Shown in pieces: positions 8,970-60,567 of a DNA stretch of 64,000 nt. How positions within the stretch are numbered: the stretch's first letter is position 1; every line of letters starts with the position of its first letter. The DNA is from an uncultured Chitinophagaceae bacterium. GTDB lineage: Bacteria; Bacteroidota; Bacteroidia; Chitinophagales; Chitinophagaceae. The notes beneath the pieces are model-generated. The model made no database searches and had not been told where the DNA came from. It saw only the letters and a list, made by a program, of their open reading frames with translations. Location: contig CAISDV010000122.1 in assembly GCA_903884185.1 (NCBI GenBank), positions 1-64,000 on the forward strand, given 5' to 3'. A program made the translations under genes and the position numbers.

Positions 8970-8994
8970 GCGAAAACATTTTTATTTTTTTTAT

Positions 8995-9025
8995 CATCCC
9001 CGACAAAGTCGGGGATGTTTTTTTT
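8995..9025 (+). terminator. Terminator of the H1-like gene made from a REP-like palindrome
   Basis: Arms CATCCCCGAC (8995-9004) and GTCGGGGATG (9008-9017) with a 3-base loop are followed by TTTTTTTT. The stem matches the core of the dispersed palindrome family at 9031, 11578, 21431 and 41692. Confidence 0.85.
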
Positions 9026-9030
9026 ATTCT

Positions 9031-9091
9031 CGTCCCCGATTCTATCGGGGATGCTTTGGTCCCCCGCCCGAAGCGTCGGGCTCTGTCGGGA
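9031..9091. repeat. REP-like palindrome pair
   Basis: CCCCGA-N5-TCGGGG (9034-9050) is joined by the linker ATGCTTTGGT to a second palindrome CCCG-N6-CGGG (9067-9080) and a trailing half site. The layout is the same as at 11578-11675. Confidence 0.65.
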
Positions 9092-33032: not shown

Positions 33033-35213
33033 TTATCTTTCATTCATTTCAGACTTATATGCTTTGATAAAAATTGCGCCAAGGTTTTTATATGGCGGCA
33101 CATAATCATCAAACTTATCTTTATCTGAAGCTGCTTTAAATTTTGACTCAAGGTTCTTCCACATAAGCGGCCAGTTCAGGTCTTGCCCTTTGCGCAGCGT
33201 CTCAGTGATCGCCTCTATCAATGCAATATTAATAACACCTGCACCCACCTGTTTGGAAGCAATGATATGTGCATCGGGGCAAATGTTCAATACATTGTTC
33301 AAACTCTGGTAACCACCACAATCGCCCAGCACCACAACTTTTGCAGTAGGAGTTAACTGGCTGATCGTTGAGTTAACATGATAACTATGCCCGCGGTGTA
33401 TGACCACTGTTGGTTCCTCATTTAAAGAATCAAGATAATCACCAAGGGCTTCCTGTGCTTTCTGATCAAGGTCCTTTTCGGTATCAAAAGGCCTGTTGGT
33501 ATAAATAACCACAGGTGTTCCTTTTGTGGATCTTACTTCTACCCATTGTTCTCTTCTTATTATTTTCCAGTTACTATTCGTGAAGGCACTTAGGAAAGGA
33601 TTGAAATAAGCGATGCCATCTTTATCGCCATAAAAAAATTGCTGTATGATGATCTTTCCCGAAGAATCTTTTAATGATTGGGCAGGCATAAAATATACCG
33701 GTGGAATGCCCAGTTTTGCAGCAACATCTATTTTACCGGAAGAATCCATAGAAAGAAAAATATTATCAAGAAGCCCGTAGATCGTTTGCCCGCGGCGGTT
33801 TCCGAGTTTTTTGTTTTGCTGCAGGCTGGCTTCCACCTGGCTAAGTATCAGTTTCCTGATCGCAGTATTATCTATGCTGGCAAAGGAATTGGCCACATCC
33901 ACAGCATCTTCAAGCGTATTGGTCTTCTCTAATCCTTTCACAAAATTCTTCATTAATATCTCAGCTTCTTCCTGGTTCATCCGGGACAGGAAATTATCCA
34001 GTTCATTATAGGCCGCAGCCATTTTGATGAACTTTTTATAAAAATCATTCCCAACCCATTTCAGCAATGTATCAGAGCGGGGGATATCCATCCGTTCAAA
34101 TATTCTTTTGTAAACACCCAGGTAACTGCTGGTATAGATCACATCTTCGCCCAATACCGGGAGGTAATATAATTCAGCAGGTGTAAGATTTTCTATGCTT
34201 TTAAAACGTACGGCCTCACTTTTCTCGTCGTGGAGTGCATTGATATTATCAATGAACTCATCTGTTGCTTTCTGCCTGAGCTTCTGTGTCAATGCACGCA
34301 TCACCAATGGAGTATCTTTTCTTGCCACTCTTTCAGCATATCTGATCTGCGTATGCACCAGTAATTTATAATATGCCAGGCCATCATCTTTGACCTTACT
34401 GATAGAGTCCATCGTTATTTTTCCGTGATAGATATCATCCAGGAAAGGAAAATAGAATTGCCCTGATTTTGTAGATGCCATCCGGCTGATACTTCTTACC
34501 AATGGCTCTTTCACACTCATGATCTTTTTGGCGAGCGAATCGCCTGCAGCTGCAAAATTGTATATCTCTTCCGGGTTCCTGTGAGCGATTGCTGCAATGA
34601 GACTGTCGGCAAAAGGAACATCCAGGTTCTTACCAATGATCTTAAGAATATTTTTTGGTTCACGCTGGCAGAGTTTCAGTACCAAAACATCTTTTGAACT
34701 TGCCAGTCCGCTGTTTTTTTGAAAAGCAAAATTTCTTACAAGGATAGTCCCCACTTCCAATTCATTTTTTTGGACAATTGGTTTAATAGACCTGTGTTGT
34801 ATTTGAGCATGCATGGCCTCATCATACGCTATCACCAGGTCGCCCAGGAGAACACCCTTGATGGCTTTCATTCGGTAAACATTGATAAAATCCTGTAGCA
34901 TATCATTGATGCCGCGCAGCCAGGTATATTTATCACTTTCGCTGATGGTACTGTCAGATTCAACAAGCGCCTGCATATTATTCACCCGTACATTCAATAG
35001 CTGGGTGATCTGGAGGTTGACATCAATGTCTTTCGAGGCGGGGAAAACAGCCGCATTCTTATTTTCCATCCTGATAATGGCCTTCTGTGAATTATCAATA
35101 TTATCATGAAGCAACTGGCGGTTCAGGGGAACGTCGGGCATATTGACCGGAACCTGGGCATTAGCACAAAACAAGCTGAGAGAGCAAAAAAAAGCTATGT
35201 ATAATTTCTTCAT
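33033..35213 (-). CDS. Secreted protein with a possible caspase-like C-terminal domain
   Basis: A 726-residue protein with signal peptide (MKKLYIAFFCSLSLFCANAQ). Residues 20-520 are helical and I do not recognise them. The last 200 residues look like an alpha/beta domain of the caspase (clan CD) type. A hydrophobic strand TVVIHRGHSYH (His606, His609) is followed by a helix and a second strand AKVVVLGDCGGYQS (Cys632), then IIASKQVGAGVINIALIEAI. The strand-His and strand-Cys pairing suits a catalytic dyad, though the 26-residue spacing is short for the clan. It is divergent from the PhoB-like gene. Confidence 0.7.
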   Translation of the reverse strand: MKKLYIAFFCSLSLFCANAQVPVNMPDVPLNRQLLHDNIDNSQKAIIRMENKNAAVFPASKDIDVNLQITQLLNVRVNNMQALVESDSTISESDKYTWLRGINDMLQDFINVYRMKAIKGVLLGDLVIAYDEAMHAQIQHRSIKPIVQKNELEVGTILVRNFAFQKNSGLASSKDVLVLKLCQREPKNILKIIGKNLDVPFADSLIAAIAHRNPEEIYNFAAAGDSLAKKIMSVKEPLVRSISRMASTKSGQFYFPFLDDIYHGKITMDSISKVKDDGLAYYKLLVHTQIRYAERVARKDTPLVMRALTQKLRQKATDEFIDNINALHDEKSEAVRFKSIENLTPAELYYLPVLGEDVIYTSSYLGVYKRIFERMDIPRSDTLLKWVGNDFYKKFIKMAAAYNELDNFLSRMNQEEAEILMKNFVKGLEKTNTLEDAVDVANSFASIDNTAIRKLILSQVEASLQQNKKLGNRRGQTIYGLLDNIFLSMDSSGKIDVAAKLGIPPVYFMPAQSLKDSSGKIIIQQFFYGDKDGIAYFNPFLSAFTNSNWKIIRREQWVEVRSTKGTPVVIYTNRPFDTEKDLDQKAQEALGDYLDSLNEEPTVVIHRGHSYHVNSTISQLTPTAKVVVLGDCGGYQSLNNVLNICPDAHIIASKQVGAGVINIALIEAITETLRKGQDLNWPLMWKNLESKFKAASDKDKFDDYVPPYKNLGAIFIKAYKSEMNER

Positions 35214-35313
35214 CCGCATCATATGGGCAAAAATACTGCCAATTGGCTGTCTGAGAGCCAACGAGTTAACAATTACATAATACTTATGAAATGGGGTATT
35301 GCAGCCTTCAAAG

Positions 35314-35341
35314 GTTAATTTTGTGTAAACAGAATGTTACC
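35314..35341 (+). promoter_or_regulatory. Pho-box-like 11-bp repeats at the response-regulator gene
   Basis: GTTAAT (35314), GTAAAC (35325) and GTTACC (35336) at exactly 11-bp steps, the last one touching the ATG. A -7 box TAATTTTG (35316-35323) overlaps the first unit. Weaker matches than the arrays at 40897, 54020 and 60529, so autoregulation is only suggested. Confidence 0.4.
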
Positions 35342-36019
35342 ATGGAAGTTAGGCCCAAAAGAATCCTGATAGCTGACGATGAACCGGACATATTGGAAAT
35401 AGTGAGTTATAATCTTGGCAAGGAAGGCTATGAGACCTATACCGCCAAAGACGGGAATGAGGCCATTGAGAGGGCCAAACAATTAAATCCCGACCTGATC
35501 ATCCTGGATATCATGATGCCAAAAAAAACCGGCGTAGAGGTATGCCGGATACTTCGCACGCAACCACTTTTCCAGGATACGCTGATCGTTTTTTTAACGG
35601 CATTGAATGACGATGCCTCGCATATCAAAGGGCTGGAAACTGGCGCCGATGATTATGTGAGTAAACCCATCAGCCCAAAAGTATTGGTCAGCCGCGTGAA
35701 TGCATTGTTTAGAAGAATACATAAGGAGGATGGTAAGACACTGAAGATCGGCAACATCTCTATCGATCCCGTAAGGTTTATTGTTTCTATTGATGAGAAA
35801 GAAGTAATGCTGGCAAAAAAAGAATTTGAATTATTATTCCTGCTGGGCTCCAAGCCGGGCAGGGTGTTTCTTCGCAATGAAATATTATCGCAGGTATGGG
35901 GTACCGATGTGATCGTTGGGGACCGTACCATTGATGTTCATATCCGTAAAGTGCGCCAGAAATTAGGAGTGGATTGTATCACCACTGTAAAAGGTGTGGG
36001 ATATAAATTCGAGATTTAA
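35342..36019 (+). CDS. OmpR/PhoB-family response regulator
   Basis: A 225-residue two-domain regulator. The receiver (residues 7-125) has the acidic pocket ADDEP, the phosphoacceptor Asp56 in LIILDIMMP, Thr in FLTALND and Lys in DYVSKPIS. The C-terminal winged helix (about 135-225) has KKEFELLFLLGSKPGRVFLRNEILSQVWG, then VGDRTIDVHIRKVRQKLG and the closing VKGVGYKFEI. Neighbourhood argues for PhoB: the kinase follows, then an Oar-like receptor, DUF47 and Pit phosphate transporter, and repeats of a Pho-box-like hexamer. The start is ATG 35342, as the N-terminal extension from 35291 overlaps the promoter box. Confidence 0.92.
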   Translation: MEVRPKRILIADDEPDILEIVSYNLGKEGYETYTAKDGNEAIERAKQLNPDLIILDIMMPKKTGVEVCRILRTQPLFQDTLIVFLTALNDDASHIKGLETGADDYVSKPISPKVLVSRVNALFRRIHKEDGKTLKIGNISIDPVRFIVSIDEKEVMLAKKEFELLFLLGSKPGRVFLRNEILSQVWGTDVIVGDRTIDVHIRKVRQKLGVDCITTVKGVGYKFEI

Positions 36020-36088: not shown

Positions 36089-37186
<1,098 letters not shown>

Positions 37187-37266: not shown

Positions 37267-37300
37267 AAAAAAACCCTCTCCATTAGAAAACGGACAGGGC
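37267..37300 (-). terminator. Second possible hairpin in the gap upstream of the Oar-like gene
   Basis: CCCTCTCC (about 37274) and GGACAGGG (about 37291) pair with one mismatch, and on the minus strand are followed by T7. It could be a second terminator for the Oar-like gene or a relic of a deleted gene end. Confidence 0.4.
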
Positions 37301-37424
37301 TTGCTTGAGAAAATCCAAAACACTATTTAATGCTTACTCGTAAAACTACTGCGACACAAAATTGCTTTGTGCAGGTTAAGTTAATGTGAAGAGGGTGCTA
37401 TGATAGTATTAACTGTTTATACTC

Positions 37425-37569: not shown

Positions 37570-40500
37570 TTAGAAATTATACTTCACACCAAATTGTCCC
37601 TGCCAGCGTGAGTTGATTGGATCCACTGTGTAATAGTGGCCGTCTAACCCTGTTGGTTTATTAAAGTTGTATGTAGGCAGGTAACCCGAAGAAGGTTTAC
37701 CTACTGCCACATTGTTTGCATCCTTAGCATAAGTAAGCAAATTAACCGTATAGTTATTTACGTTAGTAACAAAAGTGATATGGCCCCAATCGTTACTCAA
37801 CAGGTTGAGTATATTGAATATATCAAAGCTCACCTGCAATGTTTGCGATTTATTGGTTTTGCTCAGCCTGAATTCATGCATCAGCTTCATATCCAGTTCA
37901 TGGTTCCATGGTGTATGCAAACCATTTCTTTCCGCAAACTGGCCTTTGCGGGTGCTTAAATACTTATCGCCATTGATCAAAGTGCTCAGATCCTGCCATT
38001 GCTGTGCAGCAGTGTACAATGTACCATTCAAAGTATAATCGGCTAACCTGATATCTGTCTGGTCTTTTGGAATATAAGGCAGGTTGGCATTTGCAGCGTT
38101 TCCATAAGGTGTACCGGATGAATTATAGATCACGCTGTAAGGGCTTCCCGATTGTCCTGAGTAAAAGAAACTCAATGAAGTGGCATTCATCTCATTCCAC
38201 AAAAGCGTTGAACCGAATGTGCCTACTATACGATGGCGAAGATCGAAATTAGAATATGCCAGTTGGGCGTTAGTTGGGGTAATAGAAGGATTTACTTCAT
38301 AGTTTGACTGGAATGAATTACGGATACCATTGCTTACATCTTTGCTTTCACCATAAGTATAAGCTGCACTCCAGTTAATATTCAATGCATGTTTACCCAT
38401 AGCAATGTTATTAGTGGTCTTGCTGATCTGAGCGGTTAAATTATAACGATATCCTTCTGTTGTATTTGTTAGCAAGTATACATTCGAATACTGTGAATTC
38501 AACTTACCGCCGGTATAAACAGGAGAAAGTGTTGGGCCTGAATTATAATATTCTACCTGGTCTTTGATATTGATCTGCTGGAATTTTACATCATACATTG
38601 TCTTTGTGTACAATACATCCAATGTTAGTTTATATCCTTTGCCAAATTTGATATCGGCTGCAATGTTTGAGCGGATCACGCGTGGCAATTTGAAATTATT
38701 GTCGATCACATCCACTTCCCTCGTATCAGCGGCATGTGCGCTGGCAGGGAAATGTGCATTGATGGTATCAACCAAGTGCAATGGATTAATGGCAAGTGGA
38801 ATAACTGTATTTCCACCAATAGTATTTGCTGCACTTGGTTTAATATCTATGTTGCCATAAGTGTTACCATTCAGTGTTTCTGCATATCCTAACCATGCAA
38901 AAGGCATCCTTCCCACAAAAATTCCTGTACCGCCTCTCAGAACAAATGACTGGTTGCCGTTTACATCCCAGCTAAATCCAAGCCTTGGTGAAAGTGTTGC
39001 AGTACCCAGCCATTTATTGGTAAACTGATTAAAGGGCGTATTAGTAAAAGTAGAACTGGCACTCGCTGTATTATTGGCTGCAGTGGCAAACCCGCCATCA
39101 GCAGGAAGTTGGTTCCCGAGAACAGGATAATCAATACGCAATCCCGGAGTTATTTTAAAACGGTTGCTTGCTGTTATCTCATCCTGGCCATAAACACTCA
39201 TCAATGCTACGTTATATGCATTGGGAGGATTATTGTAGATCGCATTCCTGTCGTTTGGTAATTTAGGATCAGTAGTAAATGCACCACGGATACGGCTTGG
39301 TTTATCTGCCAGGAAGTTGGTCAAATTCGAATATTCCCAACGGCCGTTCCATGAATTAATGAAACCGTAAGTAAGATTATAAAATTCATTGTGCGTACCG
39401 AAAGTGAATTTGTTAATGCCTTTTGTCAATGTTACATTATCACTGATCTCGATCGTCTGTTGTTTCATATTGTAAATGGAAGCTTCCCTCCATGTTCCCA
39501 GCCATACGGCGCCACCGCCAATATCCATGAAAGGGGATAGGGTGCCGGGAAAACTTCTGTATTCATGTACATTAATATAACTCGCATTGAACTGGTTGCT
39601 CAGGTTATTGCTGATCTTTGTTTTCAGTTCTGCCACCAGGTTCACGTTATTAGTGTATTGTGTAAAATCTGTTGAAGAGAATTGGAAGTTGGAAGACGTA
39701 CGTTCCAGGTTATTTCCCGAACCGCTTGTATAAATAGCACGCACCATTAAACTTGTCCTGTTATCGAGATTGAAATCAAAGCGGGCGAATACCTTATCAC
39801 TGTTTGTGAAAATTTTATATGCACCGTCGTAAGATCCCGGATCATAATTATATTTTGTCTTTAACTGGTTCGAGATGGTTTGTGCATCAGCCAATGTAAT
39901 GGCAGCCCCAGGTTCACCTGCATTATAGAAAGTAGGCTCCTGCCTGCGGGTCTGTTCATAATTGATAAAGAAGAACGCTTTGTTCTTTACAAAAGCGCCA
40001 CCGATGCTTCCACCATATTGATAGTCATAAAAATCTGAGCCGATACTTTTTTTCTGCCCATCAACACTTTTTCCTACTAATGCCTGGTTACGTCCATAAG
40101 CATATAAAGAACCATGAAAATCGTTGGTACCGCTTTTGGTAACTGCATTCACACTTCCACCTGTAAAGTTGCCTATCTTAACATCATAAGGCGCCAGCTG
40201 CACCTGCACTTCTTGTATGGCATCAAGGCTATAAGGATTGGTACGTGTACCAGCTCCTGCTGCACCACTTTGCCCGCCACCGCTTACTCCGCCAAATGAG
40301 TTACTAAACCCGATGGCATCATTATTTACTGCACCATCCACCGTAAGATTATTATAACGGAAATTGCTTCCCGCAAAAGAGTTATTGTTTGACTGAGGTG
40401 TTAAACGTGTAAAATCCGATAGGCTTCTTCCCAGTGTTGGCAAGGTGGTCAACTGCCTGCTGGTCACTGTTACCGCCCCTGGAAGCGTTTTGCGGCCTGC

Positions 40501-40869
40501 TGCAGTTACAGTTACTTCTTTTAAGTCGGTGGCAGTAGTTGCCAGGCGCACATTAAAATCCGGGTTATTACCCAATGAAAGGTTGATGTCTTTCATCACT
40601 TCTTCCTTATACCCGAGAAAAGAGATCTTGATCGTGTATGGACCACCCACTTTCAGGTTCGGGATCACAAAAATACCCTTGCTATTGGTTTGAGAAGTGG
40701 TTACAAAGCCTGTTGGCTCATGCTTTACGGTTATTATTGCTGCCGTTAGAATACCACCTTTGTTATCAGAAACATTACCGCTCAAAGAGGCTGCTGTTTC
40801 CTGCGCAAACGTGGCGGAGGATAGAAAAAAGACAGCGAAAGCGAGTGTGGCAAGTAGCTTTTTGAACAT
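37570..40869 (-). CDS. Oar-like TonB-dependent outer-membrane receptor
   Basis: A 1099-residue receptor with signal peptide (MFKKLLATLAFAVFFLSSATFAQ). A CarboxypepD_reg-like domain (SGNVSDNKGGILTAAIITVKH) is followed by a plug (GRSLSDFTRLTPQSNNN, then SLDAIQEVQVQLAPYDVKIGNFTGGSVNAVTKSGTNDFHG, the Oar signature), then a 22-strand-type barrel ending WQGQFGVKYNF. Its ligand cannot be read from sequence. Position between a PhoB/PhoR pair and DUF47-Pit and a five-unit Pho-box-like array at its promoter suggest uptake of a phosphorus compound. The ATG at 40869 begins the signal peptide; no TonB box-like sequence was sought. Confidence 0.93.
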   Translation of the reverse strand: MFKKLLATLAFAVFFLSSATFAQETAASLSGNVSDNKGGILTAAIITVKHEPTGFVTTSQTNSKGIFVIPNLKVGGPYTIKISFLGYKEEVMKDINLSLGNNPDFNVRLATTATDLKEVTVTAAGRKTLPGAVTVTSRQLTTLPTLGRSLSDFTRLTPQSNNNSFAGSNFRYNNLTVDGAVNNDAIGFSNSFGGVSGGGQSGAAGAGTRTNPYSLDAIQEVQVQLAPYDVKIGNFTGGSVNAVTKSGTNDFHGSLYAYGRNQALVGKSVDGQKKSIGSDFYDYQYGGSIGGAFVKNKAFFFINYEQTRRQEPTFYNAGEPGAAITLADAQTISNQLKTKYNYDPGSYDGAYKIFTNSDKVFARFDFNLDNRTSLMVRAIYTSGSGNNLERTSSNFQFSSTDFTQYTNNVNLVAELKTKISNNLSNQFNASYINVHEYRSFPGTLSPFMDIGGGAVWLGTWREASIYNMKQQTIEISDNVTLTKGINKFTFGTHNEFYNLTYGFINSWNGRWEYSNLTNFLADKPSRIRGAFTTDPKLPNDRNAIYNNPPNAYNVALMSVYGQDEITASNRFKITPGLRIDYPVLGNQLPADGGFATAANNTASASSTFTNTPFNQFTNKWLGTATLSPRLGFSWDVNGNQSFVLRGGTGIFVGRMPFAWLGYAETLNGNTYGNIDIKPSAANTIGGNTVIPLAINPLHLVDTINAHFPASAHAADTREVDVIDNNFKLPRVIRSNIAADIKFGKGYKLTLDVLYTKTMYDVKFQQINIKDQVEYYNSGPTLSPVYTGGKLNSQYSNVYLLTNTTEGYRYNLTAQISKTTNNIAMGKHALNINWSAAYTYGESKDVSNGIRNSFQSNYEVNPSITPTNAQLAYSNFDLRHRIVGTFGSTLLWNEMNATSLSFFYSGQSGSPYSVIYNSSGTPYGNAANANLPYIPKDQTDIRLADYTLNGTLYTAAQQWQDLSTLINGDKYLSTRKGQFAERNGLHTPWNHELDMKLMHEFRLSKTNKSQTLQVSFDIFNILNLLSNDWGHITFVTNVNNYTVNLLTYAKDANNVAVGKPSSGYLPTYNFNKPTGLDGHYYTVDPINSRWQGQFGVKYNF

Positions 40870-40896
40870 AACGTTTTTTTTGGTTTCGCTGCAAAG

Positions 40897-40948
40897 GTTA
40901 CCACGGTATGTTACCAAATCGTTACCCGCAGGTTACCAGGCTGTTAAC
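40897..40948. promoter_or_regulatory. Five-unit Pho-box-like direct repeat array
   Basis: GTTACC at 40897, 40910, 40921 and 40932, and GTTAAC at 40943, that is 13, 11, 11 and 11 bp apart. Read on the minus strand it is GGTAAC toward the Oar-like gene, ending next to a TAACCTTTG -7-like box; read on the plus strand it lies upstream of DUF47-Pit. See the main finding. Confidence 0.7.
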
Positions 40949-41018
40949 ATTGCCAGTGCGATACATATTAATTAATTATTAATTCTGCCTGCTCCCCGCT
41001 GTATTGGAAGCATACCTT

Positions 41019-41041: not shown

Positions 41042-41689
41042 ATGGGGATGAATACGATTGGCCGTTTTTTTATGCCGAAAAACAAAGTTTTCTACGACCT
41101 GTTTGAACAGGTAGTGGATACATTAGGCGAAATGGGGTTGATGCTGAAGAAAGTAGTGGCTGAACCCGATTATGATAAGAGAGCACCTTTGATCAGGCAG
41201 ATAGAGGACCTGGAACATAAGAACGACGATCATACCCATAAAATATTCACCGAATTAGGCCGCAACTTTATTACGCCTTTCGACCGGGAAGACATTCATT
41301 ATCTCGCCACTTCATTGGATGATATTGCAGATTATATTTTTGCATCGTCGAAGAAGATCAATTTGTACCACGTAAACCCTACTGATACAGGCATCCAGAA
41401 AATGGCCGACCTGATAGAGCAGGGATGTGTGGAGATCAGAACCGCTGTGTATGGCCTCAGGGATCTGAAAGACCTGCGCAAAATGACCGAAGCCCTTGTA
41501 AAAGTGAACAGCATTGAAAACCAGGCCGATGATGTGTTTGATATGAGTATTGAAATGCTGTTCCAGCATGAGAATGATGCCAAGGAAGTAATCAAGAAAA
41601 GAGAGATCTACCAGGCAATGGAGATCGCTACGGATAAATGTGAAGATGCCGCAAATGTCATCGAATCCATTATCATTAAATACGCATAA
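41042..41689 (+). CDS. DUF47 (PhoU-like) phosphate transport regulator
   Basis: A 215-residue all-helical PhoU-like protein of the DUF47 family. Characteristic stretches are FYDLFEQVVDTLGEMG near residue 20, the IEDLEHKNDDHTHKIFTELGRNFITPFDREDIHYLATSLDDIADYIF block (the E-x3-D-x3-H metal-cluster pattern), and NSIENQADDVFDMSIEMLFQ. DUF47 proteins are encoded next to Pit transporters in many bacteria and are thought to modulate them. The ATG at 41042 is preferred over the in-frame TTG at 41024, which lies in the promoter box. A REP-like element separates it from the Pit gene 87 bp downstream. Confidence 0.9.
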   Translation: MGMNTIGRFFMPKNKVFYDLFEQVVDTLGEMGLMLKKVVAEPDYDKRAPLIRQIEDLEHKNDDHTHKIFTELGRNFITPFDREDIHYLATSLDDIADYIFASSKKINLYHVNPTDTGIQKMADLIEQGCVEIRTAVYGLRDLKDLRKMTEALVKVNSIENQADDVFDMSIEMLFQHENDAKEVIKKREIYQAMEIATDKCEDAANVIESIIIKYA

Positions 41690-41691
41690 TA

Positions 41692-41733
41692 TCCGGGGAA
41701 CCAGGGCATCCCCGTCGGAGACGGGGACGAGAT
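41692..41733. repeat. REP-like element between DUF47 and Pit genes
   Basis: Half site TCCGGGGA, linker ACCAGGGCAT, then CCCCGTCGGAGACGGGG, in the reversed orientation of 9031-9060. It sits inside an apparent operon and could reduce Pit expression or stabilise the DUF47 message. Confidence 0.65.
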
Positions 41734-41776
41734 GGGAAGAGGTTTTCTTCTCAGCGACCCACGAAAAAAATTTTCT

Positions 41777-42817
41777 ATGTTCACACTGCTTATCGTTATC
41801 ATAGTACTTTCTTTCATCTTCGATTATATCAATGGGTTTCACGATTCCGCCAATTCTATTGCGATGATCGTTTCAACAAAAGTGCTCACTCCTTTCCAGG
41901 CAGTATTGTGGGCGGCGTTCTTCAATTTTGCAGCTTTCTTTGTTGCCAAATATTTGATCCACGAATTCAAGATCGGCAATACGATCGCTAATTCTGTACA
42001 CCAGGGATTCATTACTTTACCGGTGATCTTTTCAGGAATAACTGCTGCAATTGTTTGGAACCTGATCACCTGGTGGTTTGGTATCCCTTCCAGTTCTTCT
42101 CATGCATTGATCGGTGGTTTTATAGGTGCTGCGCTGGCACATGCCGGTGGGTTTTCCAAAGCGGGTATGGATGTAGTGAATTATACTACCGTTATCCCTA
42201 CTTTTTTATTCATTTTCCTTGCTCCATTAATAGGGATGATCATCGCATTTGTGATAACGATCATCATAGTACACTTATGCAAACGAGCGAACCCCTATAA
42301 GGCCGAAGGCTGGTTTAAACGTTTTCAGTTGGTTGCTTCTGCCGCTTTTAGTTTGGGGCATGGTGGCAACGATGCACAAAAAGTGATGGGTATTATCGGT
42401 GCAGCCATTATTTATTATGAAGGTACACTGGGGCACCACCTAAGTTTCAACGATTTTGTATCACAATACAGTTGGGTTCCTTTTACGAGTTTTCTTTGTA
42501 TTGGTTTAGGAACGATGAGTGGCGGCTGGAGGATCGTAAAGACCATGGGAACGCGCATTACCAAAGTAACTCCATTGGAAGGTGTAGGTGCTGATACAGC
42601 AGGGGCGATCACGCTGTTCCTGACACAAAAATTAGGCATTCCCGTTAGTACCACACATACTATCACCGGATCCATTATCGGCGTTGGCGCTACAAAAAGA
42701 TTAAGTGCCGTGCGCTGGGGCGTGACCGTAAACCTGCTCTGGGCATGGATACTCACCATTCCCGTTTCAGCCCTCATGGCCGGGATCATTTATTTTATTG
42801 TGAAAATATTTGTGTAG
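41777..42817 (+). CDS. Low-affinity inorganic phosphate transporter, Pit family
   Basis: A 346-residue integral membrane protein with about ten helices. The two inverted Pit signature repeats are DYINGFHDSANSIAMIVST near the N terminus and LGHGGNDAQKVMGIIG in the second half, with GIPSSSSHALIGGFIGAALA and GIPVSTTHTITGSIIGVGA as their phosphate-site partners. It takes up phosphate with protons or metal cations. The start is ATG 41777 at the first helix; an earlier ATG at 41732 overlaps the REP-like element. It follows DUF47 on the same strand, the common Bacteroidota arrangement. Confidence 0.95.
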   Translation: MFTLLIVIIVLSFIFDYINGFHDSANSIAMIVSTKVLTPFQAVLWAAFFNFAAFFVAKYLIHEFKIGNTIANSVHQGFITLPVIFSGITAAIVWNLITWWFGIPSSSSHALIGGFIGAALAHAGGFSKAGMDVVNYTTVIPTFLFIFLAPLIGMIIAFVITIIIVHLCKRANPYKAEGWFKRFQLVASAAFSLGHGGNDAQKVMGIIGAAIIYYEGTLGHHLSFNDFVSQYSWVPFTSFLCIGLGTMSGGWRIVKTMGTRITKVTPLEGVGADTAGAITLFLTQKLGIPVSTTHTITGSIIGVGATKRLSAVRWGVTVNLLWAWILTIPVSALMAGIIYFIVKIFV

Positions 42818-51198: not shown

Positions 51199-53952
51199 TT
51201 AGAATTTATACCTGAATCCACCCAGGATATTTATTTGATAAATGTCTTTCCCCACTACTGTCTTATCGCTAAATGCCTGGTCAGGGAATTGATTTCCTGC
51301 AGGAGGCGCTTGTAAGATCACAGTCCTTGATGGCGTATTCGTTAGGTTGTTCACTTTACCATAGAAAGAAAAATGACGGCCAAATGTTTTCTCAAAAGAA
51401 AAATCCAGAATGCCTTGTCCTAATTGGTAATAATCCAGATTATAATAAGGAGATACTTGCGCAATACGCTGCCCTGTATAAACAAACGCCACTTGTATGT
51501 CTAACCCGATCTTCGGATTTTTATACAACAAAGACAGGTTGCCGATATGATCTGCCTGCCCTTGCAGTGGACGCGTCTGGCTTACCAGTTTACTCGTGAT
51601 ACCAAGTACCGCATCCCTGTAAAAATATTGTTTGGTAGTTGTGATCTCAGATTTGGTATAAGTATAATTCGCAGATACGCCAAACATCCCAAAATATTTT
51701 GTAAACACCATTTCAATTCCATAGTTCACTGCATTTCCGAAATTTTCAGGCTCTAAAAATTGTGCGCTTGGCCCGCCATTTCTTACGATGGAATATTCTA
51801 TCGGGTTTTGAATGTTTTTATAAAATGCACCAATTAATAGTTGGTCTGCCCCACCCGGGAAAAGTTCATACCTCAGGTCAATATTGTCTGCCTGTGAGTG
51901 CTTCAGACTGTCATTGCCTTTGATATCAAACAATTCGCCAATGATCTGGGTAGGAATGATCTCGTAAAAATCAGGACGCACAACAGACCTGAAATAAGAC
52001 AGCCTGATATTTTGTTTGTTTGTGAGTGCATATTTTAAATGTACACTTGGCAGAAGATCAGTATAGCTTACTGTGCCATACCTGCCCGCAAAACTTTCGG
52101 GCATGATGGTATTAAATCCTTGTTGTGTATTTTCTATACGCGCACCGCCCAGTATCTGTAACTTTTTTGTCAACATAAATTTCATTTGCAAATAACCCGC
52201 AGCAACATCTTCATGAGAAGTGTATGTATTTGGATTTGTAGTTGTAATAGAGCCGGCTCCATTTCCCGCAGGGCTGAAATTATATACTGCGTTATTGTAG
52301 TTTGTCCAGTATTGTGGCAATCCACCTGTCAGCACCGGGCTTAAAGAATAAGGGTTATAATAATTATCTCTTGTTTTATTGCGGTACATGCCGCCAAAAT
52401 TGAATTCTACTGGGGTGCCTGCTATCTTAGGCGTGTAAAACATATTCAGGTAGCCTGATACATCCTGGTCGGTATTGTGCTGCCATATCCTTGAATTTTT
52501 TTGAACGATAAAAGAGCCGGGTGTGACGGCGCTTTGATAATCGTATTCAGCCATATCAGGCACATCGCTTTTTGCGATGGAAAAAGAAGCGATCCAGTTT
52601 AGCCTGAACAAATCGCTCAAAGTATGATCACCCTGCAAAGTGGAACTGTAAATGCTCTGTAACTGTGTACGGCTGCGCATGTAATTATCAGAGAGTTTGT
52701 TCAGGTATACAGAATCATAAGTTGATCTTGTCTGAAACTCATTCATGTGCACATACATATTGTATAAGGAAATCTTATTACTACTGTTGATCACATAATC
52801 AAACTTGTTATGTAGCCCCCAACGGGTTGTCTGGGTGGAATATTTTCTCAGGTACAGGTCGCTGATCACAGACTGGTTGTTGAGGGTACCCACTACCTGT
52901 GGTTGTGCATTGGGAACAAGGAGATCAGAATTAGAGCCGCGGAAAATATTTTGATAAGAAGCAGAGAGGATGATACCCAGTTTATTTTTCATGACGCGCC
53001 CGCCAATGGTCAATCCCGCGGTAGCATTTAATGGCAGATCCTGGTTGGTAAAATTCAAATTGCCTTTTGAAAAATCTGCCTGTGTTGCCACGTAACTATT
53101 TCCTGATATTTCTGCCGGTGATTTTGTGTTAACTGCGCTATGCTGAAATTCGCTGAAGGGCCGGCTTTGGGAAAACAAAGTGGAGAAACCAGTTCCCAGG
53201 TTGGCATTAAAAATAAACCGTTGTGGTGCGCTTTTCATTACCAGGTTCATAGTGCCGCCTACTGCATCTGCTTCCATTGATGGTGTGAGGGATTTGATCA
53301 CTTCTAATCTTTCCAGCATATCCGAAGGAAACATATCCATTGGTACGTAGCGGTATTTTGCATCCGGGCTGGGTATTTTAATGCCATTCACTAATGTATT
53401 GTTATAGCGCTCATCCATTCCCCTGATAATCGCGTAACGGCCTTCGCCACTCGAGCTGCGTTCGATACTAACACCCGAAACACGTTGTAAAGCATTGGCC
53501 ACAGTTATATCAGGCAATAATTGAATTGTTTTTTGAGAGAGTACATTCTCCAGTATCTCAGCATTTTTTTCAAGCCCTCTTACTGCTGCATCAGATTCTT
53601 TACCACCTTTTCCTGTTACCCGAACTTCTGCTAATTGCATGCTTTCTTCTTTCATTTCCATATTCTGCACAGCATTATCGTGATCATTTTTCAGTACAAC
53701 ACTGAATTCCTTTGTGGTGGAATAGCCCACAAATTTTATTTTCAGTTCATACTTTCCTGCGGCCAGGTTCCGGAAGGTATAAGAGCCATCAAGGTTAACG
53801 GTAGTAATGAGTTTTGTTTTGCCCCCTTCTACCTGTACCGATGCCCCAACGAGTGGTTCGCCAGTCTTTGAATCAGTAACTTTTCCTTTAATAGTTTGGG
53901 AGAAAACAGAGAGAGAGATAAAACAAACAGTAAGCGTAAAAATGAGTTTCAT
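51199..53952 (-). CDS. TonB-dependent receptor, first gene of a phosphoesterase operon
   Basis: A 917-residue receptor with signal peptide (MKLIFTLTVCFISLSVFSQ). A CarboxypepD_reg-like domain (KGKVTDSKTGEPLVGASVQV) is followed by the plug (LPDITVANALQRVSGVSIERSSSGEGRYAIIRGMDERYNNTLVNG, then LEVIKSLTPSMEADAVGGTMNLVMKS). The barrel ends INILGGFRYKF with the terminal Phe usual for BAM substrates. It heads a unit with the beta-helix lipoprotein 20 bp downstream, the phosphoesterase and the YncE-type propeller. A four-unit Pho-box-like array lies 68-107 bp upstream of its ATG. The start at 53952 opens the signal peptide. Confidence 0.92.
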   Translation of the reverse strand: MKLIFTLTVCFISLSVFSQTIKGKVTDSKTGEPLVGASVQVEGGKTKLITTVNLDGSYTFRNLAAGKYELKIKFVGYSTTKEFSVVLKNDHDNAVQNMEMKEESMQLAEVRVTGKGGKESDAAVRGLEKNAEILENVLSQKTIQLLPDITVANALQRVSGVSIERSSSGEGRYAIIRGMDERYNNTLVNGIKIPSPDAKYRYVPMDMFPSDMLERLEVIKSLTPSMEADAVGGTMNLVMKSAPQRFIFNANLGTGFSTLFSQSRPFSEFQHSAVNTKSPAEISGNSYVATQADFSKGNLNFTNQDLPLNATAGLTIGGRVMKNKLGIILSASYQNIFRGSNSDLLVPNAQPQVVGTLNNQSVISDLYLRKYSTQTTRWGLHNKFDYVINSSNKISLYNMYVHMNEFQTRSTYDSVYLNKLSDNYMRSRTQLQSIYSSTLQGDHTLSDLFRLNWIASFSIAKSDVPDMAEYDYQSAVTPGSFIVQKNSRIWQHNTDQDVSGYLNMFYTPKIAGTPVEFNFGGMYRNKTRDNYYNPYSLSPVLTGGLPQYWTNYNNAVYNFSPAGNGAGSITTTNPNTYTSHEDVAAGYLQMKFMLTKKLQILGGARIENTQQGFNTIMPESFAGRYGTVSYTDLLPSVHLKYALTNKQNIRLSYFRSVVRPDFYEIIPTQIIGELFDIKGNDSLKHSQADNIDLRYELFPGGADQLLIGAFYKNIQNPIEYSIVRNGGPSAQFLEPENFGNAVNYGIEMVFTKYFGMFGVSANYTYTKSEITTTKQYFYRDAVLGITSKLVSQTRPLQGQADHIGNLSLLYKNPKIGLDIQVAFVYTGQRIAQVSPYYNLDYYQLGQGILDFSFEKTFGRHFSFYGKVNNLTNTPSRTVILQAPPAGNQFPDQAFSDKTVVGKDIYQINILGGFRYKF

Positions 53953-54019
53953 GTGCCAGTTTGATTTTGATCGCTCAAATATCAATTGCCATGGCCACTA
54001 TACTGCCTCATTTGCGCTA

Positions 54020-54058
54020 ATTAACGATATGGTAAAACAATGATAACAATTTGGTAAT
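54020..54058. promoter_or_regulatory. Four-unit Pho-box-like array between divergent TonB receptors
   Basis: ATTAAC (54020), GGTAAA (54031), GATAAC (54042) and GGTAAT (54053) at exactly 11-bp steps on the plus strand, equal to GTTACC-like units on the minus strand. It is located between the start of the receptor at 53952 and the one at 54182. Confidence 0.6.
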
Positions 54059-54169
54059 ATGAAGTACAGAATTTATTCAGAATCTTCAGTATCGACTTCC
54101 CAGAAAGGGCCTTCCCTTGACCACTTCGCTCTGCTTTAGACATTCCCCCTATATTAAACATTCCCCTGC

Positions 54170-60528: not shown

Positions 60529-60567
60529 GTTATCTTATTGTTACCACCGGGTAAAGGAAAAGTAAAC
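60529..60567. promoter_or_regulatory. Four-unit Pho-box-like array in the PlcP/DedA divergent region
   Basis: GTTATC (60529), GTTACC (60540), GTAAAG (60551) and GTAAAC (60562) at exactly 11-bp steps. It lies in the 297-bp gap between the divergent starts 60380 and 60678, which otherwise holds no gene. Confidence 0.6.

Follow-up and report, generated by a model that had tools for sequence, protein, structure and literature searches.

The PhoP box of Bacillus subtilis is built of TTAACA-like repeats, often four of them, at an 11-bp period, and differs from the sites described here in serving Gram-positive promoters. The boxes of PhoB-type regulators are 11-nt direct repeats with a species-dependent core, which is CTGTCAT in the two-repeat Pho box of Escherichia coli and GTTCACC in the PHO box of Streptomyces coelicolor, where the direct repeat units vary in number (PMC4415409). 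In E. coli, 10 bp separate the box from the -10 element downstream of it (PMC1906773). The Pho box core of SphR, the PhoB orthologue of Synechocystis, is CTTAACCT; this organism belongs to another phylum, and neither TAnnTTTG promoters nor outer-membrane receptor and small RNA (sRNA) targets are among the features given in the part of the SphR literature consulted. Within the Bacteroidota, where promoters are unusual in having a -7 element with the consensus TAnnTTTG (PMC9723704), the PhoP protein of Riemerella anatipestifer was assigned a DAP-seq motif containing TTTAACA, likened to that of ArcA, from a set of 583 peaks, and was found to be upregulated in phosphate starvation, with EMSA at phoPR and at a TonB-receptor promoter (PMC9603813).

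The phosphate regulon of the Bacteroidota has been mapped by expression in Flavobacterium (PMC8115612) and in Bacteroides fragilis (PMC3547664), and the word 'motif' is absent from the main texts of both papers. Phosphate depletion in Flavobacterium induces TonB transporters, PlcP and a glycosyltransferase (PMC8115612), and in marine bacteria the gene for PlcP is often in an operon with that for a glycosyltransferase (PMC4796936). In B. fragilis, PhoB binds the pstC promoter. Expression of a phosphate/sulphate permease depends on PhoB there (-52.2 in the mutant), but the permease, as well as pstC, belongs to the group that does not change with phosphate in the wild type (PMC3547664).

An operator sequence for Chitinophagaceae was not found in the literature searched. 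The initial annotation of the locus described here was right that its core differs from the TGTCA of E. coli (TGTCA-N6-TGTCA does not occur in the window, defined below), but an almost identical core has been published for a cyanobacterium (Synechocystis SphR) and for one member of the Bacteroidota (Riemerella PhoP), and the core alone is not new. What is apparently new are two promoter layouts of fixed spacing and a conserved candidate sRNA linked to phosphate. An operator with two spacing rules would help in reading the phosphate regulon from Chitinophagaceae genomes, including those of uncultured members, and possible new members of the regulon include outer-membrane receptors, a 729-residue protein, an Omp85/PhyH pair and the candidate sRNA.

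The intergenic array and the receptor promoter

The window (the whole stretch of DNA that was analysed, 64,000 nucleotides) carries the following features in and around the intergenic region.

35342-36019, plus strand: PhoB-like response regulator gene, starting at the ATG 35342 (35345-36019 or a longer ORF served as query)
36089-37141, plus strand: PhoR-like histidine kinase gene
37570-40869, minus strand: Oar-like outer-membrane receptor gene (CarboxypepD_reg and OMP_b-brl_4), ATG at 40869
40892-40899, minus strand: -7 box of the receptor gene, AACCTTTG, which departs from TAnnTTTG at one position
40910-40948, plus strand: four-unit 11-bp array (GTTACC, GTTACC, GTTACC, GTTAAC), the proposed operator of the divergent Oar-like receptor promoter
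40964-40985, plus strand: two-unit box of DUF47-pit, TTA at 40968 and 40979, 23.7 bits
41019-41026, plus strand: -7 box TACTTTTG of DUF47-pit, 37 bp after the second TTA
41042-41689, plus strand: DUF47/PhoU_div gene
41732-42817, plus strand: Pit-type phosphate transporter gene (PHO4)

The array lies between the start of the Oar-like receptor gene and the ATG of DUF47 at 41042. In this gap, GTTACC occurs at 40897, 40910, 40921 and 40932 and GTTAAC at 40943, in steps of 13, 11, 11 and 11 bp, and the initial annotation had taken all five words as operator units at an 11-bp period. Its words and positions stand, but the operator is reduced to four units: the word at 40897 overlaps the receptor -7 box, which is 10 bp from the first operator unit, and is better read as a portion of that box. 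It is GTTGCC in the close relatives L060, L061 and L063, which keep the four units at 11 bp and the gap of 10 bp. The same layout of receptor and array is present in these three, in L064 and in other relatives. The annotation had also placed a box against the unit on the receptor side, and the minus-strand box TAACCTTTG (40900-40892) does overlap the unit closest to the receptor.

Read on the receptor strand, the array units are GGTAAC (once GTTAAC) and end 10 bp short of the -7 box. This distance is the same as that of the E. coli PhoB box, although the core, CTGTCAT, differs, and the S. coelicolor PHO box is alike in its direct repeats and differs in phylum and core. Riemerella PhoP, like the proposed regulator of the array, is a two-component protein of the same phylum; however, it is treated as a virulence and redox regulator, an 11-bp rule or four-unit arrays are not described in the part of that paper cited here (PMC9603813), and the likeness of its binding site is one of motif.

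Sixty 64-kb sequences simulated with the dinucleotide frequencies of the window contained 0.07 exact GTTAMC-N5-GTTAMC pairs each, and none of the 60 held an exact three-unit array; the window has three overlapping pairs, which make up one four-unit array. The exact pair is confined to this array in the whole genome (2.95 Mb, 188 contigs). A genome scan with the exact pattern was dropped, the strict core being too narrow and rarer than its reversed control (31 matches with at most one mismatch versus 97 for the reversed pattern), that is, without genome-wide enrichment.

The array is most probably a Pho-box operator, made of four head-to-tail half-sites, of the PhoB-like regulator encoded at 35342-36019, which would activate the receptor gene in phosphate starvation. 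The array, its conservation, its period and spacing and the clustering of sites at phosphate genes are observed, and an operator of the PhoB family is well supported by them; the binding protein, the activation and the phosphate signal we infer. On phosphate starvation, PhoR would phosphorylate PhoB, which would then bind the four units, 11 bp or about one DNA turn apart, just upstream of the receptor -7 box, replace the -33 contact and recruit RNA polymerase. DUF47-pit would be controlled from a separate two-unit box that lies 37 bp ahead of the DUF47-pit -7 box, and the nearby candidate sRNA may be switched in the same way as the receptor.

The regulator is the best PhoB match among seven in the genome, and scores below both the PhoB equivalog cut-off TIGR02154 (223.4 versus 296.2 bits) and the Bacteroidetes PhoB cut-off NF053854 (205.8 versus 270 bits). 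The initial annotation had given the array to this regulator, encoded 5 kb away, and the 11-bp repeats and the rank of the match agree with that part of its claim; the array is, however, tied to the receptor or sRNA promoter, and pit has its own box at 40964-40985.

The DUF47-pit box and the neighbours of the array

Regions upstream of DUF47 were taken from 30 genome loci (that of the window included) and 80 named contigs, giving 108 usable regions, of which 106 are distinct; L067 and L124 duplicate L031 and L034. Among named DUF47 genes, the nearest are 86-87% identical and come from Chitinophagaceae or Bacteroidetes assemblies. A box of at least 15 bits, with the fitted consensus AATRTTAHCWAATTRTTAAYT (TTA repeated at 11 bp), is present in 102 of the 108 regions and the remaining 6 score below 15 bits; the fit is in-sample, and the independent signs are position and spacing. 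In 97 of these 102 regions, the start of the box is between 75 and 92 bp ahead of the ATG. A strict TAnnTTTG-type box follows the second TTA at 37 bp in 69 of the 102, at 38 bp in 18 and at 39 bp in three (with a loose -7 pattern, at 37 bp in 72 and at 38 bp in 18). The box of the window is matched by both models described below, by R1 with an E-value of 2.1e-9 and by R2 at 40965-40986. Judged from these regions, DUF47-pit has a separate conserved box, distinct from the array at 40910-40948.

The 170 bp that precede the pit box were scored for four-unit arrays, with significance set at p <= 0.01 from 200 single-base shuffles, and the loci were sorted by neighbouring gene; the counts cover 100 of the 108 loci, those without a neighbour call or with a box below 15 bits being left out. 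A phoR gene of the window's type lies directly upstream of DUF47, in the same direction, in 40 of the 100. Significant arrays were found at 19 of the 28 loci with a divergent neighbour at a gap of up to 200 bp, at 14 of the 25 where such a neighbour is farther away, at 15 of the 17 with phoR more than 200 bp away, at none of the 23 with phoR within 200 bp upstream of DUF47, and at one of the seven other loci. The layout recurs in relatives beside divergent receptors or the candidate sRNA, and on these neighbour-class counts the array is judged to belong with the divergent transcript (the receptor or sRNA promoter) and not with pit.

In 22 of 36 distinct arrays, CAAA (TTTG on the other strand) precedes the first unit by exactly 18 bp, with no other distance occurring more than three times. 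In the 29 arrays where the A-rich word is present, TTA-like words are found at positions 0, 11, 22 and 33 in 29, 28, 25 and 29 cases, and at -11 and 44 in 2 and 4. Counting strict TTA, the four units are present in 27, 17, 13 and 29 of the 29, the inner ones being weaker. The absence of a fifth unit is a firmer result than the unit counts, because selection was by score for the arrays and by the A-rich word for the 29, and in-sample scores of boxes and arrays flatter. A period of 11 outperforms the other periods at 39 of the 53 divergent loci, but it does so at 19 of the 40 phoR loci as well. The 10-bp gap is common, in the window, to the receptor, the sRNA candidate and the PlcP-like operon, whose -7 boxes carry one, one and two mismatches.

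Matches elsewhere in the genome and in relatives

Four further sites of the window, two beside phoB and two near the genes for a TonB receptor and a PlcP-like protein, are listed below.

35262-35284, minus strand: highest-scoring box of the window (25.2 bits), lying between phoB and the gene at 33033-35222
35325-35341, plus strand: GTAAAC-N5-GTTACC pair, between the phoB -7 box and ATG
54018-54061, minus strand: four-unit array upstream of the TonB receptor gene at 51199-53952
60529-60567, plus strand: four units (GTTATC, GTTACC, GTAAAG, GTAAAC) before the PlcP-like and glycosyltransferase genes

Model R1, which includes the spacer and the -7 box, was strong for pit only, and R2 was used in its place. 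R2 has 24 columns and was built from 64 sequences of other genomes, without this one. Among the best 150 candidates scored, it gave 13 matches at E <= 10 in the 2.95 Mb of the genome, and eight of these lie in C122, the 152-kb contig of the window, which makes up 5% of the genome (binomial P = 5e-8). They are at 35263, 40965, 54043, 54018, 40907, 60528, 73237 and 73188. Counted as separate sites, and with the pit box left out, five of ten are in C122 (binomial P = 7e-5). Of the five matches outside this contig, two are intragenic, another is close to a contig end, a fourth precedes an OsmC-like gene and the last is at C174:15526. This last box (C174:15526-15544, L164) stands between an Omp85-like and a PhyH-like gene, and the pair is accompanied by a box also in the relative G010 (L200). 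On C122, 9 kb past the window, two weak boxes (73188-73252, L163) precede an actin-like/bactofilin gene pair, which has no evident phosphate role.

In 34 relatives, R2 gave 68 matches at E <= 0.3, and 21 of them are at phosphate genes by coordinates (12 at DUF47-pit, eight at phoB and one at plcP). For the 56 non-pit matches, 40 regions were read, several of which have the match inside genes, and 43 hand-picked adjacent proteins were scanned, one being the window's own. The 43 include six response regulators, two phosphate-selective porins, a MauG-like peroxidase and PhoH, and also some proteins without an evident phosphate link. Boxes of at least 12 bits are present upstream of phoB in 17 of 29 regions, versus 2.4% of random windows, a conservative comparison in that the random windows include loci that were motif matches and the background tail is therefore too high; 13 of the 17 boxes are oriented away from phoB. 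Upstream of plcP, only 4 of 20 regions reach 12 bits. Weaker repeats can be seen there by eye. Two expectations of the initial annotation, enrichment near phosphate genes of this and related genomes and conservation of the repeats in orthologous intergenic regions, were thus borne out, the first at pit, at phoB and weakly at plcP.

Beside phoB, the box at 35262-35284 is 31 bp before TATTTTTG of the gene at 33033-35222 and, reversed, 35 bp before TAATTTTG of phoB, and matches neither spacing rule. The pair at 35325-35341, which abuts the phoB start codon, is a possible feedback site for phoB, and exact GTAAA-N6-GTTA is present in 8 of 29 relatives. The gene at 33033-35222 (minus strand), which adjoins phoB, specifies a 729-residue protein with an apparent signal peptide and without a Pfam or NCBIfam family; relatives of this protein (34-54% identity) are found beside phoB in L192, L196, L199 and L202.

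The TonB receptor array lies 38 bp before GATATTTG (53983-53976, one mismatch), which is a pit-like spacing rule, and the units at 60529-60567 precede GTGCTTTG of the minus strand (60518-60511, with two mismatches) by 10 bp. Imperfect -7 boxes are those of the receptor, the sRNA, the TonB receptor and PlcP. The gene set of the window fits the Flavobacterium phosphate regulon. A PstS above the family cut-off is absent from the whole genome, the only match scoring 55.3 versus 206.6 bits, and phosphate uptake here may rest on Pit.

The units of the array are oriented in the same way as pit and the pit box, and the array could on this ground be an upstream enhancer of DUF47-pit instead of the receptor operator. 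Its fixed 10-bp distance to the divergent -7 box, and its absence from all 23 phoR-near loci, which retain the pit box, make this a rather unlikely role. The clustering of sites at phoB, pit and plcP, beside the PhoB-like gene, both here and in relatives, likewise makes it improbable that a different OmpR-family regulator encoded here is what binds the array, even though the genome has seven OmpR-type matches and ArcA-like proteins, too, typically have direct repeats at 11 bp with a core of GTTA. The motif of Riemerella PhoP was itself reported to be highly similar to that of E. coli ArcA (PMC9603813).

The sign of regulation is a separate matter. PhoB is able to activate and to repress (PMC10294691), and in a Riemerella phoP mutant 34 of 50 direct targets were up (PMC9603813), but the units of the array sit at the place of the -33 element, as far from the promoter box as the E. 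coli site is reported to be, and repression of the receptor gene through them is considered unlikely. TTA is common in AT-rich intergenic DNA, yet the spacing rules, the clustering and the lack of exact three-unit arrays in the 60 simulated windows leave very little probability for chance or a general conservation of AT-rich promoters. An operator from which the PhoB-like regulator would activate the receptor gene is the preferred reading.

The candidate small RNA

A second transcript with an array of the same kind is predicted between phoR and the receptor gene.

37267-37350, minus strand: candidate small RNA, whose 5' end is putative, with the core TTTTCTCA, a terminator hairpin and a T run
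37375-37413, plus strand: degenerate four-unit array (GTTAAG, GTGAAG, GCTATG, ATTAAC), p = 0.002 from single-base shuffles

The array lies 10 bp upstream of the sRNA -7 box CAATTTTG (37364-37357, one mismatch). An alignment of 20 relatives and the window shares the -7 box, the core (TCTCA in 21 of 21, TTTTCTCA in most) and the terminator hairpin, in which five of the eight pairs have changes on both sides with pairing kept; L053 was judged a false find and is not in the set. The sRNA marker word is present in 17 of 17 phoR-far loci versus 0 of 23 phoR-near loci. In several lineages, including that of the window, the receptor gene lies between the sRNA and pit and has its own array. Rfam searches of 14 loci and the window gave nothing above the gathering score for the sRNA, and a low-threshold Rfam scan returned only chance-like matches, far below gathering scores.

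The sRNA of the window is the best match of the sRNA model R3 in its own genome (37268-37369, E = 8.8e-6), the window copy being among the 21 sequences of the model. Strong matches among 57 further loci outside the model set include L072, L076, L123, L128, L067, L096, L135, L060, L065 and L121, and at L060, L096, L107, L121 and L128 the match lies beyond the receptor gene, as in the window. At E <= 1, R3 has a match in 32 of 39 genomes, a threshold at which it also catches ordinary promoter-plus-terminator pairs. At E <= 1e-3, the 39 genomes give 12 matches, four near phoB or pit (G000, G004, G009 and G010) and eight elsewhere. When the ten best-per-genome loci were scored for arrays, again against single-base shuffles, p <= 0.01 was reached in five of the five near phoB or pit (two of them model members) and in one of the five elsewhere. 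The sRNA family may be wider than the phosphate link, because some loci away from phoB and pit share the core and hairpin.

The chances appear even that this is a Chitinophagaceae sRNA, placed beside phoR and the pit operon and driven by the same four-unit PhoB operator, that would be a phosphorus counterpart of the iron-starvation sRNAs; its almost invariant TTTTCTCA core could in that case pair with target mRNAs. At three loci away from phoB and pit (L218, L221 and L222), a TTTTCTCATG core is seen with a terminator hairpin, and an array precedes it in L222 and in neither L218 nor L221. A weak R3 match at 8972-9056 on the plus strand of the window (E = 0.003-0.015) is probably an ordinary promoter or terminator.
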